From: a virus
Direction: 5' to 3' (one strand)
IMG/VR virus record: IMGVR_UViG_3300006086_000024
Location: 1 to 30,195 of that record
DNA length: 30,195 bases
Positions 1 to 13,587 of the stretch are shown here, in pieces. The first letter of the stretch is position 1; every line of letters begins with the position of its first letter. Both the position numbers and the translations under genes were made by a program. The notes under the pieces were generated by a model that made no database searches, had not been told where the DNA came from, and saw only the letters and a list, made by a program, of their open reading frames with translations.

Positions 1-521
1 AATAAAAACTCTTTATGTGGCATTGTATTTATATTATAGAATTCATTTGGGTCAATTTTATAGGTCACTATAGGTTGTTCCCCTGTAAATTCACTTGCTT
101 CGTTTATTTTTCTTCCTATGTAATTCATTACAGGAACAGCCATTGATTTACCAAAACTTCTATATTTGCTATTATCATTTGCTGGTTTATTGAGATGAAT
201 TATATCGAGGTAATTTTCAGGAAATCCTTGCAGTCTAGCATATTCAATGGGAGTCAATTTTCTTACTACAGTAGATGTTGGGTTTATGATTGCAACACAA
301 TGTCTATCTGCGCCAGTGAGAGTATAACAAACTCCAGAATCATCGAAACCTGTTCCATTACCGCCGTTTTCTGGCTGTCTGCCAATCGTATTTCCTACCA
401 ATGAATAAACATACTCTTTAGTAAATGGAGTAGGTGCTATCTTACACCCAACAGTTAATGCATATTTTAATGGTGCTGGTAATATTTTATTTCTAGTCTC
501 TGCTCGGTGGATTAGAGCCTC
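1..521 (-). pseudogene. C-terminal part of a cytosine-C5 DNA methyltransferase, out of frame with its N-terminal part; runs off the window
   Basis: Reading the minus strand in the frame whose codons begin at 521 gives an uninterrupted stretch to the window edge that completes the methyltransferase of 493-1137. It holds the short target-recognition region, motif IX (V-R-K-L-T-P-I-E-Y-A-R-L-Q-G-F-P, around 210-260) and motif X (F-G-K-S-M-A-V-P-V-M, around 125-155). The frame joins the N-terminal part near 493-510, where PPSR is followed by a premature TAG. Adding two bases to the short AG run there would read PPSRETRNK, the usual continuation in this family. Motif X normally has Asn where this protein has Lys (codon at 147-149, minus strand). 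No ATG or GTG with a ribosome site is available for separate translation; only a TTG at 539 precedes the break. Seen: the frame break and motifs. Inferred: a single broken gene, or a sequencing error. Confidence 0.8.
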
Positions 522-1137
522 GCAAACTTCTTTTTTCAAGTAATATCGGGGGTCTATTGAACCAGTCTCCAAAATCTGCGACAACAAACAAACGCTTGCG
601 TCTTTGCGCCAGTCCGAACCATTGAGCGTCCAAAACGCTCCATTCGATAAATGCTTTATCCCCAATCGCTGCTCCCTCGCTTCCCCAACCGTGTTCAGGG
701 ACTTCAACGTGCTGTAGTCCTGCCATTTCTGCAACCACAGCAGCAAAGTCCTTGCCCTCGGTTGAGCTAAATGCTCCGGGTACGTTTTCCCATAATGCAA
801 ATCTGCATCCATTGTGTTTTCTAGCCCATTCAATTATTTTTATTCCATGAAAAAACAAACTACTTCCAGTTCCCTCTGTAAATCCTTCTCTTTTACCTGC
901 AACCGATAACGCTTGACAAGGGGAACCAAATACAACTAGGTCAAATTGACCTAGTGATTTAATTTGTTCTTCAGTTATTTTTGTTATGTCACCTAAGTTT
1001 GGTATTGTTGGATAATGATAATCTAATACTGAGCATTGAAATGGTGATATTTCAGATAATGCGACACAATCCCAATCAAGTGATTCCCATGCAGTGCTTG
1101 CTGCTTCTATACCAGAAAATAATGACAAATATCTCAT
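493..1137 (-). CDS. DNA (cytosine-5-)-methyltransferase, N-terminal catalytic part (frameshifted gene)
   Basis: This 214-residue frame holds the catalytic half of a C5-cytosine DNA methyltransferase: motif I L-S-L-F-S-G-I-E-A-A-S (SAM binding, residues 4-14), motif IV G-S-P-C-Q (catalytic Cys74), motif VI E-N-V-P (117-120) and motif VIII Q-R-R-K-R (179-183). It stops in the sequence PPSRD just before the target-recognition region; motifs IX and X follow in another frame (1-521). The ATG at 1137 has an AAGGA ribosome site inside the end of the upstream CmoA-like gene, whose stop is 2 bases away, so the two are probably translationally coupled. The break after motif VIII resembles natural two-subunit enzymes such as M.AquI, but the second part lacks a convincing start, so a mutation or sequencing error is more likely. 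The modified sequence cannot be predicted. Confidence 0.88.
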   Translation of the reverse strand: MRYLSLFSGIEAASTAWESLDWDCVALSEISPFQCSVLDYHYPTIPNLGDITKITEEQIKSLGQFDLVVFGSPCQALSVAGKREGFTEGTGSSLFFHGIKIIEWARKHNGCRFALWENVPGAFSSTEGKDFAAVVAEMAGLQHVEVPEHGWGSEGAAIGDKAFIEWSVLDAQWFGLAQRRKRLFVVADFGDWFNRPPILLEKRSLRGSNPPSRD

Positions 1138-1138
1138 T

Positions 1139-1801
1139 CTAATCCTTGATCACTACTATTCCGACAAAATTTAAACTCTTCCAGAAAATCTCAACTTTAC
1201 CGATATCAGATAACTCAGTTATAAGTTCATTTAAAGTTTTTAATCGTAGGCTTCGACGTAATTGTCTTTGTTTTAATAATATTTCATTGTCATTAAAACT
1301 CATACCCTTAAACTCATAATAAATGGAATCCATTGCTGATTGCATTATTGCGGTTTCGCTGTGTATCTTCTCACAACAAATAAAAGCACCCCCTTTATTC
1401 AATCCTTTCTTTACTAGATTGATAGTTTGTTCTCGTTTTTTTGGAGATAAAAATTGAAGTGTGAATAAAGATAAAATCAAAGAAGAATTAAAGATATCAG
1501 TATCAACAATATCCATTTTAAAAAACTCTAGATTTTCCAAACTTTTATGGGGAATAAGATCAGATTCATCGATGCCAATAAAATTTGAATTTGGATATTG
1601 AGGAGCAAGAATACTTAAAGTTTTTCCTGTCGAACAACCAATATCTACAACGTTAGTACTGTCGTTAATGAAATAAGAAGCAAACTTTATTACCTGATCG
1701 TGCATTGTGTCATAGTTTTGTATCGATGATTCTATATGTGCATCAAAATTCTTTACTGTATTAAAATTAAACTTGTCGCTCATAATCCAATAATCTTTCA
1801 C
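1139..1801 (-). CDS. cmoA: CmoA-like class I SAM-binding enzyme (putative carboxy-SAM synthase)
   Basis: The protein has a Rossmann methyltransferase fold with motif I V-V-D-I-G-C-S-T-G-K (51-60) and the acidic I-G-I-D-E-S (75-80). By eye it aligns over nearly its whole length with E. coli CmoA: F-T-L-Q-F-L (113-118), G-L-N-K-G-G-A (133-139), the E-K pair (144-145) and the ending L-N-F-V-G-I-V-V-I-K. CmoA converts SAM and prephenate into carboxy-SAM, which CmoB uses for tRNA wobble uridine. Arg179 in K-Q-R lies where E. coli CmoA has Arg199, recalled as the residue gripping the carboxylate; this depends on my ungapped alignment from the shared Phe-Lys. The start is uncertain: GTG at 1801, or ATG at 1783, which better fits the family N-terminus. 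It overlaps the end of the upstream cytosine methyltransferase gene and is followed after 1 base by another. No CmoB partner is visible. A generic methyltransferase is the alternative. Confidence 0.8.
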   Translation of the reverse strand: MKDYWIMSDKFNFNTVKNFDAHIESSIQNYDTMHDQVIKFASYFINDSTNVVDIGCSTGKTLSILAPQYPNSNFIGIDESDLIPHKSLENLEFFKMDIVDTDIFNSSLILSLFTLQFLSPKKREQTINLVKKGLNKGGAFICCEKIHSETAIMQSAMDSIYYEFKGMSFNDNEILLKQRQLRRSLRLKTLNELITELSDIGKVEIFWKSLNFVGIVVIKD

Positions 1802-2660
1802 CTATCCATGTAACTGCTGGTACAGTCATTCCGTTATACATAAATTTTTCCGTCTCACTCCCATTTGGGAACCAATCATCGGGAAATCCTTGAAGTCTTA
1901 ATCTTTCTAAAGGTGTTACTCGTCGCAACACTCCATTTTGCAACACAATATCAGTAAAATCTTTATAGTCGCGCTTTGTTAAAGTAGAACTTACACCTGC
2001 ACAAGCAAACTCGTTACTGCGCTGTCTAGTAAAGTAGGCAAAGGTGTGTCTGTCTCCTTCGCTCTCCTTGAAATTCCATTTAATGCTTTGTTTGAAAGAT
2101 TCCACTTTTGATCTACACTCTTTTCGATCACGTTCTGCAAGCTGGAATATATCGGAATTATAGGGGATTCCATCCCTGACTCCGAGAATATAAACCCTAC
2201 GTCTCCGTTGCGGGACTCCTGTGTATTGGCTGTCAATGACCGTCCAAGTCGCATCGTACCCGATTTGGGCAAGGTCGTGGAGTACTTTTTCAAGTCCTCT
2301 GCCAAGCAAACCGAAGACATTTTCAATGATGCAGTATCGGGGTCTAATAACCCCAATTGCACGAAAATATTCATTCCATAATCCACTTCTTTTTCCATAA
2401 ATCCCATCTCCAGTTTTACTTGCTATACTTATGTCTGTGCATGGAAACCCACCACATATTACATCTGCTTCTACAGTAGAAAAATCAATCTTCGTTACGT
2501 CACCTAGATTGACTACATTCGGAAAATTTTTCTGTAGTGTTTTTTTCGGAAATTCATCTATTTCAGAAAAAGCGATTGTTTCAAAACCCCCCGTTTTTTC
2601 CAAGCCCAAACTGAATCCACCAATACCAGAAAATAAATCTAACACCTTTAGCTTTTTCAA
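1767..2660 (-). CDS. dcm: DNA (cytosine-5-)-methyltransferase, intact
   Basis: This is a complete 297-residue C5-cytosine DNA methyltransferase. Motif I is L-D-L-F-S-G-I-G-G-F (8-17), motif IV G-G-F-P-C-T (catalytic Cys74), motif VI E-N-V (113-115), motif VIII Q-R-R-R-R (151-155), motif IX R-R-V-T-P-L-E-R-L-R-L-Q-G-F-P, and motif X Y-N-G-M-T-V-P-A-V. Motif X keeps the usual Asn but has Tyr where Gly is normal. The start is a TTG that overlaps the TGA of the nucleotidyltransferase gene, with GAGGA about 10 bases ahead; a GTG at 2645 is an alternative. It probably protects phage DNA from host restriction or marks it for another purpose. No restriction endonuclease is visible nearby, which fits an orphan phage methyltransferase. 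The recognition sequence is unknown. Confidence 0.93.
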   Translation of the reverse strand: MKKLKVLDLFSGIGGFSLGLEKTGGFETIAFSEIDEFPKKTLQKNFPNVVNLGDVTKIDFSTVEADVICGGFPCTDISIASKTGDGIYGKRSGLWNEYFRAIGVIRPRYCIIENVFGLLGRGLEKVLHDLAQIGYDATWTVIDSQYTGVPQRRRRVYILGVRDGIPYNSDIFQLAERDRKECRSKVESFKQSIKWNFKESEGDRHTFAYFTRQRSNEFACAGVSSTLTKRDYKDFTDIVLQNGVLRRVTPLERLRLQGFPDDWFPNGSETEKFMYNGMTVPAVTWIGERLLDYERQV

Positions 2661-9124: not shown

Positions 9125-10837
9125 CTATGCTAATACGGTCATATCATCCTTAAGTGCATAAACGATAGACTCGTCAAAATACTGCTCAAATTCTGCGTGG
9201 CGTTGACTAATAACGAATAAATTAGTATCTTCACCTAATCCATTCCACATTGTCATAAATTCTTCTACACCACTTGCAGATAAATTTTCTAAAATTTCAT
9301 CAAGAATTAAGATATTAACATCAACACTTGCTTTTGATTTAGCTATATTACGCCATGCAATCAAATTAGCTAAATCAAGCCTACGCCGTTGACCTGTAGA
9401 AAGATCATCAATAGTTTGATTCTTTCTATTTGGTGATCGCATACTTAAATTAGCATCGCTATCTAAATCAATGTTCAGATATAAATTTAACTTATCCAAC
9501 GTAGCATTCATATCTTCTACCAAGAAAGGAATGTATTGTTCAACGATAATTGCCTTAGCACCATCGTCTGCTAATATTTTTAACATATGGCTATGTTTTA
9601 ATTCATTTTTCTTGTGTTCTTGTAGCTCGTCGTCTTTTTGTTTAATCTGAGTTATGAGAGAATTAATTTCTTTCTGTTCAGCTTCAATCAAAGAGTCTTC
9701 GTTTGCATCAATTGTTTTCGCTTTTAATGCTTCAATTCTATTATTGGCAGCAGATAAACGTCCTTCTAACTGAGCCTGTGTGACACGCAAATCATTAATT
9801 TTTTTCTTAACTTCATTGTTAGCCACTACAATTTTTTCTTGTGCTTCTAAGTCTTTAGTTAATTTTTCCATAGGAGCAGAAAAATTATTAATCGATTCTT
9901 CTGCTGCATTTTTAATTGAACTTTTATGATCTTCCGTAACTCCCTGCTTACATGTAGGACAATCATGAAGCGAAGTAATGTTATTCATGTTTGTTTTAAG
10001 TTGTTCAATCTTAAACTTAAACTTATCCAACATAGATTTAATTTCGGAATACTTAGTTTCTGCTCCAGCAACAATTGACTCATTTAACGTTGTCATCTTG
10101 GCGTTTAACATAGAAAGCATTTTTGTTACGTCTGTTTGCTCTTTTACGAAGCCAGCTAATTCATCTCCTGACTCAGCAAGTCGCGCTTTCTTTTTATCTT
10201 CTAGAATCTTAAGAGTACGTTTTCTAGCGTCTAATTTACTTTCTAACGTACCGCCTTCATAAAAAGTTTGATCTATTAATTTTTTAACGACTTTGATTCG
10301 TTCTTTTGCTTTATTCGACATATCAGAAATAATAGTCAAATCAAGCATGTTTTCGATAAAAGTTCTACGTTCAGCAGCAGAGAATTCAGTAAATGGAACA
10401 AAACGACTAACCCCTAAAGCAATAGTTGTAAAGAAAGCTTTTTCATCAAATCCAATTACCGATTCTAGGTAAGCTTGCGGGTCTTTTACACTAGCTTCAT
10501 TATCTTTACGAACACCGTCTTGATATATTTCAAAAATTGCTGGTTTCTGTCCACGTTTTACTGTCCAAACACTACCTTTAGTTTCAAAATCAAGTTCAAC
10601 CACGGAATCTTTGTTTGATCTTGTATTAATTAAACCTCCTATCTTTGCTCCCTTCTGATAATTCTTACCAAAAAGGGCATAGAACGGAGCAAAGATAGAC
10701 ATGGTACTTTTCCCTGCCCCATTGTCCAAAGAGGCTATAAGGGTCGATTTATTGGCTTGGTAATCGATTTCCATTCCTGCATTACCAATGCTCCGAAAAT
10801 TCTTAGCTCTACATTTCAAAAAATTAAATTTAGCCAT
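9125..10837 (-). CDS. 46: recombination endonuclease ATPase subunit gp46 (Rad50/SbcC-like)
   Basis: The 570 residues match T4 gp46 in size and order. Walker A is D-N-G-A-G-K-S-T (38-45). A long heptad-rich coiled coil (about 180-420) is interrupted by a zinc-hook C-P-T-C (293-296). The ABC signature is L-S-T-G-Q-R-R-R (479-486) and Walker B N-I-L-I-L-D-E (508-514). With gp47 it forms the nuclease complex that resects double-strand ends to feed recombination-dependent replication. Its ATG overlaps the gp47 stop by 8 bases with AAGGAAG ahead, favouring matched production of both subunits. Confidence 0.95.
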   Translation of the reverse strand: MAKFNFLKCRAKNFRSIGNAGMEIDYQANKSTLIASLDNGAGKSTMSIFAPFYALFGKNYQKGAKIGGLINTRSNKDSVVELDFETKGSVWTVKRGQKPAIFEIYQDGVRKDNEASVKDPQAYLESVIGFDEKAFFTTIALGVSRFVPFTEFSAAERRTFIENMLDLTIISDMSNKAKERIKVVKKLIDQTFYEGGTLESKLDARKRTLKILEDKKKARLAESGDELAGFVKEQTDVTKMLSMLNAKMTTLNESIVAGAETKYSEIKSMLDKFKFKIEQLKTNMNNITSLHDCPTCKQGVTEDHKSSIKNAAEESINNFSAPMEKLTKDLEAQEKIVVANNEVKKKINDLRVTQAQLEGRLSAANNRIEALKAKTIDANEDSLIEAEQKEINSLITQIKQKDDELQEHKKNELKHSHMLKILADDGAKAIIVEQYIPFLVEDMNATLDKLNLYLNIDLDSDANLSMRSPNRKNQTIDDLSTGQRRRLDLANLIAWRNIAKSKASVDVNILILDEILENLSASGVEEFMTMWNGLGEDTNLFVISQRHAEFEQYFDESIVYALKDDMTVLA

Positions 10838-11921: not shown

Positions 11922-12646
11922 ACCGCAATCCCTTCAAATAATATAAACTCCTCTGTTTCTTGAAGTTCTTCTTCAAATAAATCAAACATAAAAGTATTAG
12001 ACTTTTTAGTAGGCTTCTTAATTTTTTGTTTTTTCTTGGCTTCTTTATCTGCTTCGTACTCCAATGCTTTGTTCATAAACTCATTACCAAGAATACTAAC
12101 GGAAGTACCACCTTCTTCTGAATCATCCGATTCAATTATTTCGTCTCCAAATGCTTCATTTCCACCTAACAATCCGTAGGAGATATATTTAAGATATTGT
12201 TGTTCCTTTTCGTACTCAATACGATTGTTAAATGATTGAATAGAGATGAAGTTAATGTAGGTAAAAGCAGAATTTTTACCTTTCATATTTTTCTTTTGGG
12301 GATTAAAATTATGTATGTACTTGACATTATTCAGCAGTGCGTCTGATTTCATTTCGTCAAGGTAACTATAACCGATGTAGTTGTGGCGTTTTCCTATAGC
12401 GTCAATGATTTTGATAATACATTCACCGACAAATTTAGGTAGTGTTGGGGTAGGAAGCCCCAATAATTTTTGTTCTTTATATTCTACCGACCATTTTCCC
12501 AGTACTTCTGTTAATTTATCGTCATCTACATAATGACGTGATTTATCTTCTTCTGGTAATAATGTTTCTTTTTCTGTTACTGATTTTTGTGTATCTTGCG
12601 TAAAAGCAATATTTTCTAATTCATCCAACTCTACTAGTTCAGCCAT
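11918..12646 (-). CDS. 55: late-transcription sigma factor (T4 gp55-like)
   Basis: The central part (about 70-160) aligns by eye with T4 gp55, the smallest sigma-70 family member: a helix like E-C-I-I-K-I-I-D-A-I-G-K-R, then H-N-F-N, S-A-F-T-Y-I and a basic helix ending in K-Y-I-S-Y. gp55 replaces host sigma and directs RNA polymerase to late promoters. The C-terminus (F-M-F-D-L-F-E-E-E-L, 219-228) resembles the hydrophobic-acidic tail with which T4 gp55 binds the gp45 sliding clamp. It is longer than T4 gp55, with an acidic N-terminal 45 residues and an acidic linker. Immediate downstream genes are gp47 and gp46. The recurrent CTAAATA boxes are its probable targets. Confidence 0.88.
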   Translation of the reverse strand: MAELVELDELENIAFTQDTQKSVTEKETLLPEEDKSRHYVDDDKLTEVLGKWSVEYKEQKLLGLPTPTLPKFVGECIIKIIDAIGKRHNYIGYSYLDEMKSDALLNNVKYIHNFNPQKKNMKGKNSAFTYINFISIQSFNNRIEYEKEQQYLKYISYGLLGGNEAFGDEIIESDDSEEGGTSVSILGNEFMNKALEYEADKEAKKKQKIKKPTKKSNTFMFDLFEEELQETEEFILFEGIAV

Positions 12647-12654
12647 TTATTCCT

Positions 12655-13146
12655 TTAATATTTGAAGTCATTCACCATTTTAACATCTAATTTGTCCGTT
12701 GTCAAATCTTCTTTTAAATTTCTCATTCCTTTTCCTGCCCAAAGATCAGCTAACTCATTTTTTTGATGTTTATTATGTCCTTTTACCCATTTTACATCTG
12801 TATTACCATGTGTATCTAATAACTCAAAAAGTGGAATCCATAATTCCTGATTTGCTACGTCTTCATACCCTCTATTTTCCCAACCACGTCTCCATTCGTT
12901 AATACCTTTTACACAGTATTGACTGTCGGATAAAATCTCAATTTTCCAATCTTTTTGTTTATGGAATGTCTTTAAAATATAAATTATTCCAGTTAATTCT
13001 GCTTTGTTATTACTTGATTGTGCTGGTAAATGACCATATCGAACATAATTTTTGCCATTCATAAAAAAACATGCAGACCACCCACCAACACATATAACTT
13101 TACCATTGTTTAAACAAGAACCATCTGTAGCACACTCTAATATCAT
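12655..13146 (-). CDS. rnhA: ribonuclease H, type I
   Basis: The fold and catalytic residues of bacterial-type RNase HI are present: A-T-D-G-S (Asp8), N-K-A-E-L (Glu50), L-S-D-S-Q (Asp74), K-G-H-N (His124) and E-L-A-D (Asp134). It would remove RNA primers from lagging-strand fragments. T4 itself uses an unrelated 5'-nuclease-type RNase H, so this is a different solution for the same step. The ATG overlaps the stop of the preceding small gene. The gene precedes gp55 by 8 bases in the same operon. Confidence 0.95.
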   Translation of the reverse strand: MILECATDGSCLNNGKVICVGGWSACFFMNGKNYVRYGHLPAQSSNNKAELTGIIYILKTFHKQKDWKIEILSDSQYCVKGINEWRRGWENRGYEDVANQELWIPLFELLDTHGNTDVKWVKGHNKHQKNELADLWAGKGMRNLKEDLTTDKLDVKMVNDFKY

Positions 13147-13328
13147 TTTACACGCCTTACCTCAAAACCAAATTTATCAGTTATTACAAAGTAATTTATT
13201 TTAAAAAATTTGTAATGCCATAACAAATAATTTTGTCGTTTTTGTTCGACATGAACAAAAAATGTAAATAACCAAATCAATGGGTAAAGACCTATTATTT
13301 TTAAAATTTCCGAAGGTTTATATTTCAT
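13143..13328 (-). CDS. small membrane protein, about 61 aa
   Basis: From the ATG at 13328 the product starts M-K-Y-K-P-S-E-I-L and has one hydrophobic span (I-I-G-L-Y-P-L-I-W-L-F-T-F-F) followed by a basic, aromatic-rich tail. The ATG comes one base after the upstream gene's TAA with no good ribosome site, so it probably relies on coupling; a longer form from 13370 would overlap 41 bases. The stop overlaps the RNase H start as ATGA. Function unknown. Confidence 0.55.
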   Translation of the reverse strand: MKYKPSEILKIIGLYPLIWLFTFFVHVEQKRQNYLLWHYKFFKINYFVITDKFGFEVRRVK

Positions 13329-13329
13329 T

Positions 13330-13587
13330 TTAGGCACAATCAAAAAGATATTGAATACGATTCCATTCATTGTGTAATTCAGTTCCTGACATGTATGGGT
13401 TTTTTACTGGTAACTCAGGCTCAATTGAATGTCCATATGAATCATTTAGAAATTCAGATGTTTCTTTTAATGCAAGTGCAAATTCACCGTCTTTGTGTTT
13501 GTTTAATTCGCTTCTTAAATCTTCTTTACTCATAGACTTAATTTTAGCAAATACACTGTCTAACGCTTCTCGTATTGTTAGTGACAT
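13330..13587 (-). CDS. hypothetical protein, 85 aa
   Basis: I do not recognise this protein. The N-terminal half looks helical and charged (K-S-M-S-K-E-D-L-R-S-E-L) and the C-terminal half is mixed. The ATG at 13587 has AAAGGGG 7 bases ahead, an excellent site. It is the first gene of the minus-strand replication-recombination operon, starting downstream of the terminator of the lysis-type cassette, so the operon promoter should lie in about 13588-13635; I see no box there I would commit to. Confidence 0.65.
   Translation of the reverse strand: MSLTIREALDSVFAKIKSMSKEDLRSELNKHKDGEFALALKETSEFLNDSYGHSIEPELPVKNPYMSGTELHNEWNRIQYLFDCA

Follow-up and report, generated by a model that had tools for sequence, protein, structure and literature searches.

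The engineered bacterial CpG methyltransferase M.MpeI N374K reportedly uses carboxy-SAM to make 5-carboxymethylcytosine. A natural phage route to this base was published in December 2025 for Synechococcus phage S-B43, in which CmoA and CmoX together yield 5-carboxymethylcytosine (Yang et al., Nat Commun 2025, PMC12783734). This precedent covers the chemistry, the structure and the native phage DNA, in which a glycyl derivative is present, and it places an arginine of CmoX (Arg350) at the motif-X Asn position; 5,615 homologues were collected with SPPC and Arg350 as requirements, and CmoA-mediated SAM depletion was raised as a possibility (PMC12783734). The initial annotation of the DNA studied here had proposed such a pathway while knowing of no natural example of CmoA-fed DNA carboxymethylation, a statement that S-B43 contradicts. 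The general idea is thus already published, and the Lys type described below is probably a slightly different version of it.

The locus analysed here resembles the CmoA-CmoX(-CmoY) system of S-B43 in that CmoA lies next to a C5-methyltransferase homologue with a basic motif-X residue and the catalytic Cys, and both CmoAs belong to the same Arg182 subtype (36% identity). It differs in the basic residue itself (Lys instead of Arg350), in motif IV (GSPC instead of SPPC) and in the lineage of its methyltransferase, M1, which comes from a different, Asn-type phage group, as well as in the division of M1 over two frames, the presence of a second C5-methyltransferase, M2, and the lack of CmoY on the contig. 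Judging from the sequence, we consider the M2-CmoA-M1 cluster to be probably a natural system for cytosine-C5 carboxymethylation, in which a Lys-type transferase is paired with a cofactor synthase of its own, a case that rests on one contig.

Gene order and the CmoA homologue

The window, i.e. the whole 30,195-bp stretch analysed, is a complete IMG/VR virus record and therefore only part of a larger genome; the baseplate-wedge gene it carries shares 34-41% identity with counterparts in T4-like phages, the records of which span 157-166 kb. On the minus strand the gene order is M2, CmoA and M1, with M1 running to the contig edge. M2 (1767-2660, minus strand) is complete, lies just upstream of CmoA, overlapping its start, and belongs to an ordinary Vibrio-phage family. 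Its motif X contains Asn (MYNGMTVPAV) as in its Vibrio-phage relatives, by which M2 was ruled out as the carboxymethyltransferase. A gene for an N6_N4 DNA methyltransferase (PF01555; 3680-4441, minus strand) is found close to this cluster, and 4.5 kb of the window hold three DNA methyltransferases (the C5 enzymes M1 and M2 and the N6_N4 enzyme). Neither CmoB nor a CmoY-like or Asn-synthetase-like ligase was found on the 30,195-bp contig, which ends inside M1; because the window is a viral fragment, a gene not seen on it may still be present in the phage, and the earlier argument from the lack of a CmoB partner loses its force.

The CmoA homologue, a putative carboxy-SAM synthase (1139-1783, minus strand), is better started at ATG 1783 than at the alternative GTG 1801 and ends with TAG at 1141-1139. 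It is homologous to CmoA in the PDB over its full length (3e-18), matches phrog_4752 (3e-52) and scores 100.6 bits against TIGR00740 (1.1e-28), which is under the 193.3-bit equivalog cut-off of this NCBIfam model of bacterial CmoA. Identity to phage CmoAs ranges from 36 to 39%, with 36% to the biochemically proven SpCmoA of phage S-B43, and single-sequence patterns found no close relatives in IMG/VR. By homology, this protein (P0002) is a genuine CmoA relative, as had been claimed; the spacing to M1 on the same strand is 1 nt (between TAG 1141-1139 and the M1 ATG at 1137) and not 2 as first given.

In E. coli CmoA, the carboxylate is bound through a salt bridge by Arg199 (PMC3663124). The window protein has Gln at the aligned site (Q178, residues being counted from the GTG start) and Arg182 one helical turn further on. 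Among 149 distinct phage CmoAs, Arg is present at the Arg199 site in 27 and one helical turn later in 115, in both places in none (0), and exactly one of the two alternative arginines is found in 142 of the 149. The Arg182-type signature is common to the window protein and the proven SpCmoA. Arg182 is hence our candidate for the carboxylate-binding residue, in place of the previously suggested Arg179, which is not conserved in this set.

A lysine at motif X and its lineage

The Lys codon of M1 (AAA, 149-147, minus strand) sits in YRSFGKSMAVPVM, and the motif GKSM[AT]VPV has a single occurrence in the window, where chance would give 0. Profile and pairwise alignments equate this residue, Lys330 in the numbering of the fused pieces M1a and M1b, with Asn304 of M.HhaI and Arg350 of S-B43 CmoX (the Asn374 position of M.MpeI), confirming that the left-end C5-methyltransferase has Lys at the Asn304 position. 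Motif IV of M1 reads GSPC, not SPPC. With Lys and GSPC, M1 falls outside the published CmoX search rule and consequently outside the homologue set assembled with it (PMC12783734); by these published criteria it is no member of the CmoX family, and it probably works like CmoX. Otherwise M1 is well preserved: of 40 columns that do not vary among 19 relatives it retains 37, including the Pro-Cys, Trp-Glu-Asn-Val and Gln-x-Arg-x-Arg motifs (core of motifs I, IV, VI and VIII), the three changes being N330K, C299Y and R324K.

To place this lysine in context we searched IMG/VR and phage records for CmoA and gathered 205 loci, many of which are near-copies, so that the counts are not independent. A C5-methyltransferase was present in 166 of them, and motif X of these enzymes carries Arg in 160 cases and Gly in five (staphylococcal), while the window contributes one Lys (M1) and one Asn (M2). 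The 80 nearest relatives of M1 in IMG/VR gave a different picture: all 57 that align correctly at motif X have Asn, and CmoA is in the locus of none. Two Gly calls in this set (L155 and L159) look like misalignments and were discarded; single-sequence patterns found no M1 relatives in genome_contigs. The expected co-occurrence therefore stands insofar as a basic residue tracks CmoA (160 Arg, one Lys), whereas the pairing of CmoA with a Lys-type methyltransferase is a single instance, neither the IMG/VR scans nor the surveyed CmoA loci having yielded another phage with it. For the proposed pathway as a whole, the chemistry is real in S-B43, and that the window pair probably carries out the same reaction is well supported by this residue-level co-occurrence.

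Lysine at motif X is rare also without CmoA. The pattern GKSM[AT]VPV matched seven times in IMG/VR, with none of the matches in a methyltransferase, and wider Lys motif-X scans over 2.9 million IMG/VR viral contigs retrieved 44 stretches, of which five are true methyltransferases besides M1 (L188, L190, L191, L194 and L197), none with CmoA on its contig. In bacterial genomes, the CAA form of the pattern gave at least 119 stretches, with no Lys-type methyltransferase among the matches listed. The possibility raised at the outset, that motif-X Lys is common in methyltransferases lacking a nearby CmoA, is thus not borne out by these five enzymes, of which those included in the tree fall in a clade of their own.

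In a maximum-likelihood tree, M1 is positioned inside an Asn-type phage clade (96/97) and does not group with the Arg-type CmoX enzymes, which constitute their own clade (100/99); those of the other Lys-type enzymes that the tree includes cluster apart from both (100/100). The L191 enzyme has a long branch and its exact place is unsure, the placement of M1 being independent of it, and the branch of M1 is itself long (0.69). On this tree the residue labels call for at least two origins of Lys and a separate one of Arg. Since M1 lies within the Asn clade and CmoX in its own, the basic residue arose separately in the two, and on this topology the M1 lysine is an independent N-to-K change that matches the engineered M.MpeI N374K. 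The substitution and its position are identical in both enzymes; M.MpeI N374K is a laboratory mutant, whereas the lysine of M1 is natural and found in a phage, beside the phage's own CmoA.

A methyltransferase in two overlapping frames

M1 had been taken for an intact gene, which does not hold. Its N-terminal polypeptide (frame A; 493-1137, minus strand) comprises motifs I-VIII, with FSGIEAA, GSPC, WENV and QRRKR, and stops at TAG 495-493; motifs IX-X lie in another polypeptide, read in frame B (+1 relative to A; 3-833, minus strand), starting at ATG 812 or TTG 833 and open at the contig edge. Residues 1-126 of frame B are a conserved overlapping-ORF segment fused to the variable region and motifs IX-X with the lysine, so that 493-833 (minus strand) is read doubly, as methyltransferase motifs VI-VIII in frame A and as the conserved +1 ORF in frame B. 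PF00145 is found in both pieces, and both frames are open and match homologues. A single-indel sequencing error as the origin of the split was ruled out, because the frame-B homology continues for about 38 nt beyond the frame-A stop and one indel cannot create this arrangement.

Relatives of M1 are mostly single ORFs, yet they retain the +1 ORF over motifs VI-VIII. Of 63 relatives, 61 have an open +1 frame, compared with 9.3 expected; when synonymous codons were shuffled in 300 rounds, the number never exceeded 15. Just 5 of the 63 have an open +2 frame. The conserved pattern of the +1 ORF is LETG..D.R[YF][FY]LS.KAC.GILRRA..RGK.LP..L..AL (493-833, minus strand, in the window; also L012 and L103-L182), and in L172/L173 and L182 the methyltransferase is split as in M1, with the +1 ORF fused in frame to motifs IX-X. 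We regard this reading frame as an apparent unannotated overlapping gene in M1-type phage C5-methyltransferase genes; a literature search found no paper on it.

Division of a C5-methyltransferase into two polypeptides has a natural precedent in M.AquI, the large subunit of which contains motifs I-VIII and the second subunit motifs IX-X, dividing in the same region as M1 (PMC3404938). Unlike M.AquI, M1 has a predicted second polypeptide with about 126 additional residues, for which the coding sequence is the +1 frame within the first gene. A structure model of the fused M1 shows a C5-methyltransferase fold (pTM 0.72) and matches M.HhaI with an E of about 1e-14 and a TM of 0.52-0.63; modelled as a single chain, it has low confidence at the join (residues 207-285), and the choice of cofactor is not readable from it. 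Together this argues for, without proving, a working, split enzyme.

Proposed function and rival explanations

The homologies, the lysine, the operon, the lineage and the split are read from the sequence, and from them we infer the cofactor, product, subunit assembly and function of M1 and CmoA as follows. CmoA would convert SAM and host prephenate to carboxy-SAM, and M1, assembled from the two polypeptides encoded in overlapping frames, would attack C6 of cytosine with Cys74 and carboxymethylate C5 with carboxy-SAM as the donor, whose carboxylate Lys330 would bind in a salt bridge, as Arg350 does in CmoX and as is thought for M.MpeI N374K. The resulting 5-carboxymethylcytosine would hinder restriction and may be amidated by a ligase encoded off the contig. 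More tentatively, and with somewhat less than even confidence, we propose for its history that a 5-methylcytosine methyltransferase of an Asn-type lineage apart from CmoX became a natural carboxymethyltransferase through the N-to-K change after linkage with CmoA, as a two-subunit enzyme with its second subunit partly encoded in an overlapping frame.

The chief rival, which we consider unlikely though worth serious attention, is that M1 is a 5-methylcytosine methyltransferase, ordinary or in decay, its lysine and its split being products of drift and CmoA having another partner or having lost it. The long branch, the stop codon at 493-495 that splits the gene and changes at near-invariant sites (D76A, C299Y and E300A) would fit such decay, N-to-K requires one base change, and a Lys-type methyltransferase beside CmoA is known from a single example. 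The five Lys-type methyltransferases on contigs that lack CmoA, the missing CmoY-like ligase and the low-confidence join of the structure model likewise speak against the carboxymethyltransferase reading. Decay is, however, difficult to reconcile with 37 of 40 invariant columns kept across two polypeptides, with two frames that are both open and homologue-matching and with the recurrence of the split in L172/L173 and L182; moreover, the residue that changed is the known cofactor-selectivity site, is near CmoA and is now basic. Improbable to a greater degree is that the adjacency to M1 is coincidental and CmoA serves a standard Arg-type CmoX, a tRNA CmoB or SAM depletion (raised in PMC12783734) elsewhere in the phage. 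Such partners could be encoded outside a fragment whose T4-like relatives are represented by records of about 157-166 kb and which itself carries neither CmoB nor CmoY, but a C5-methyltransferase accompanies CmoA in 166 of 205 loci and the one adjacent downstream in the window carries a basic motif-X residue. Finally, a sequencing or assembly error at the lysine codon (AAY to AAA is one base, in an assembled viral contig) is very improbable, as the surrounding residues diverge too (YRSF vs YKAL), the base lies within an open, homologous stretch, the split is not explicable by one indel, and chance would hardly place an error on precisely this codon next to a CmoA gene.

If the Lys-type carboxymethyltransferase reading is true, DNA carboxymethylation evolved more than once, M1 is a natural counterpart of the engineered N374K enzyme on a different scaffold, and the use of carboxy-SAM can be predicted from one motif-X residue. 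The rule of SPPC plus Arg350 would then miss systems, namely the lysine of the window and the glycine of staphylococcal enzymes with CmoA. The latter, in staphylococcal phages and prophages (vB-SscS-F1, SPbeta-like), resemble M1 in having CmoA nearby and no motif-X Asn, and differ from it in having Gly at this position (VGGVINQLHLK; L004 7488-8495, L008 6660-7658 and L228-L230), and carboxylate recognition must therefore differ. By their gene neighborhood and motif X, these Gly-type enzymes are CmoA-linked and outside the Arg350 rule. In the F1 ligase, SGGNGS replaces the usual SGGVDS loop.

The five Lys-type methyltransferases without CmoA have an unusual motif IV, either QPSC or DDC. Thymidylate-synthase-like genes are found beside them at the inspected loci L188, L191 and L194, and an asparagine-synthetase-like ligase (12061-13389) is encoded 1.5 kb from the L191 enzyme (9381-10526); a novel pyrimidine modification is possible for this group. 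This ligase hints that Lys-type enzymes may share in amide hypermodification, perhaps with carboxy-SAM of the host.

Two further CmoA contexts were noted in the survey. In Erwinia jumbo phages (L015 5962-7644, and others), CmoA adjoins an asparagine-synthetase-like gene with no C5-methyltransferase within 6 kb and a DNA adenine methylase a few kb off. A human-gut scaffold labelled 'Bacteriophage sp.' (MT835562.1; L007 5944-6738) carries a CmoA-like gene among ABC exporters and metabolic-looking genes, without a DNA methyltransferase, and looks bacterial rather than phage.
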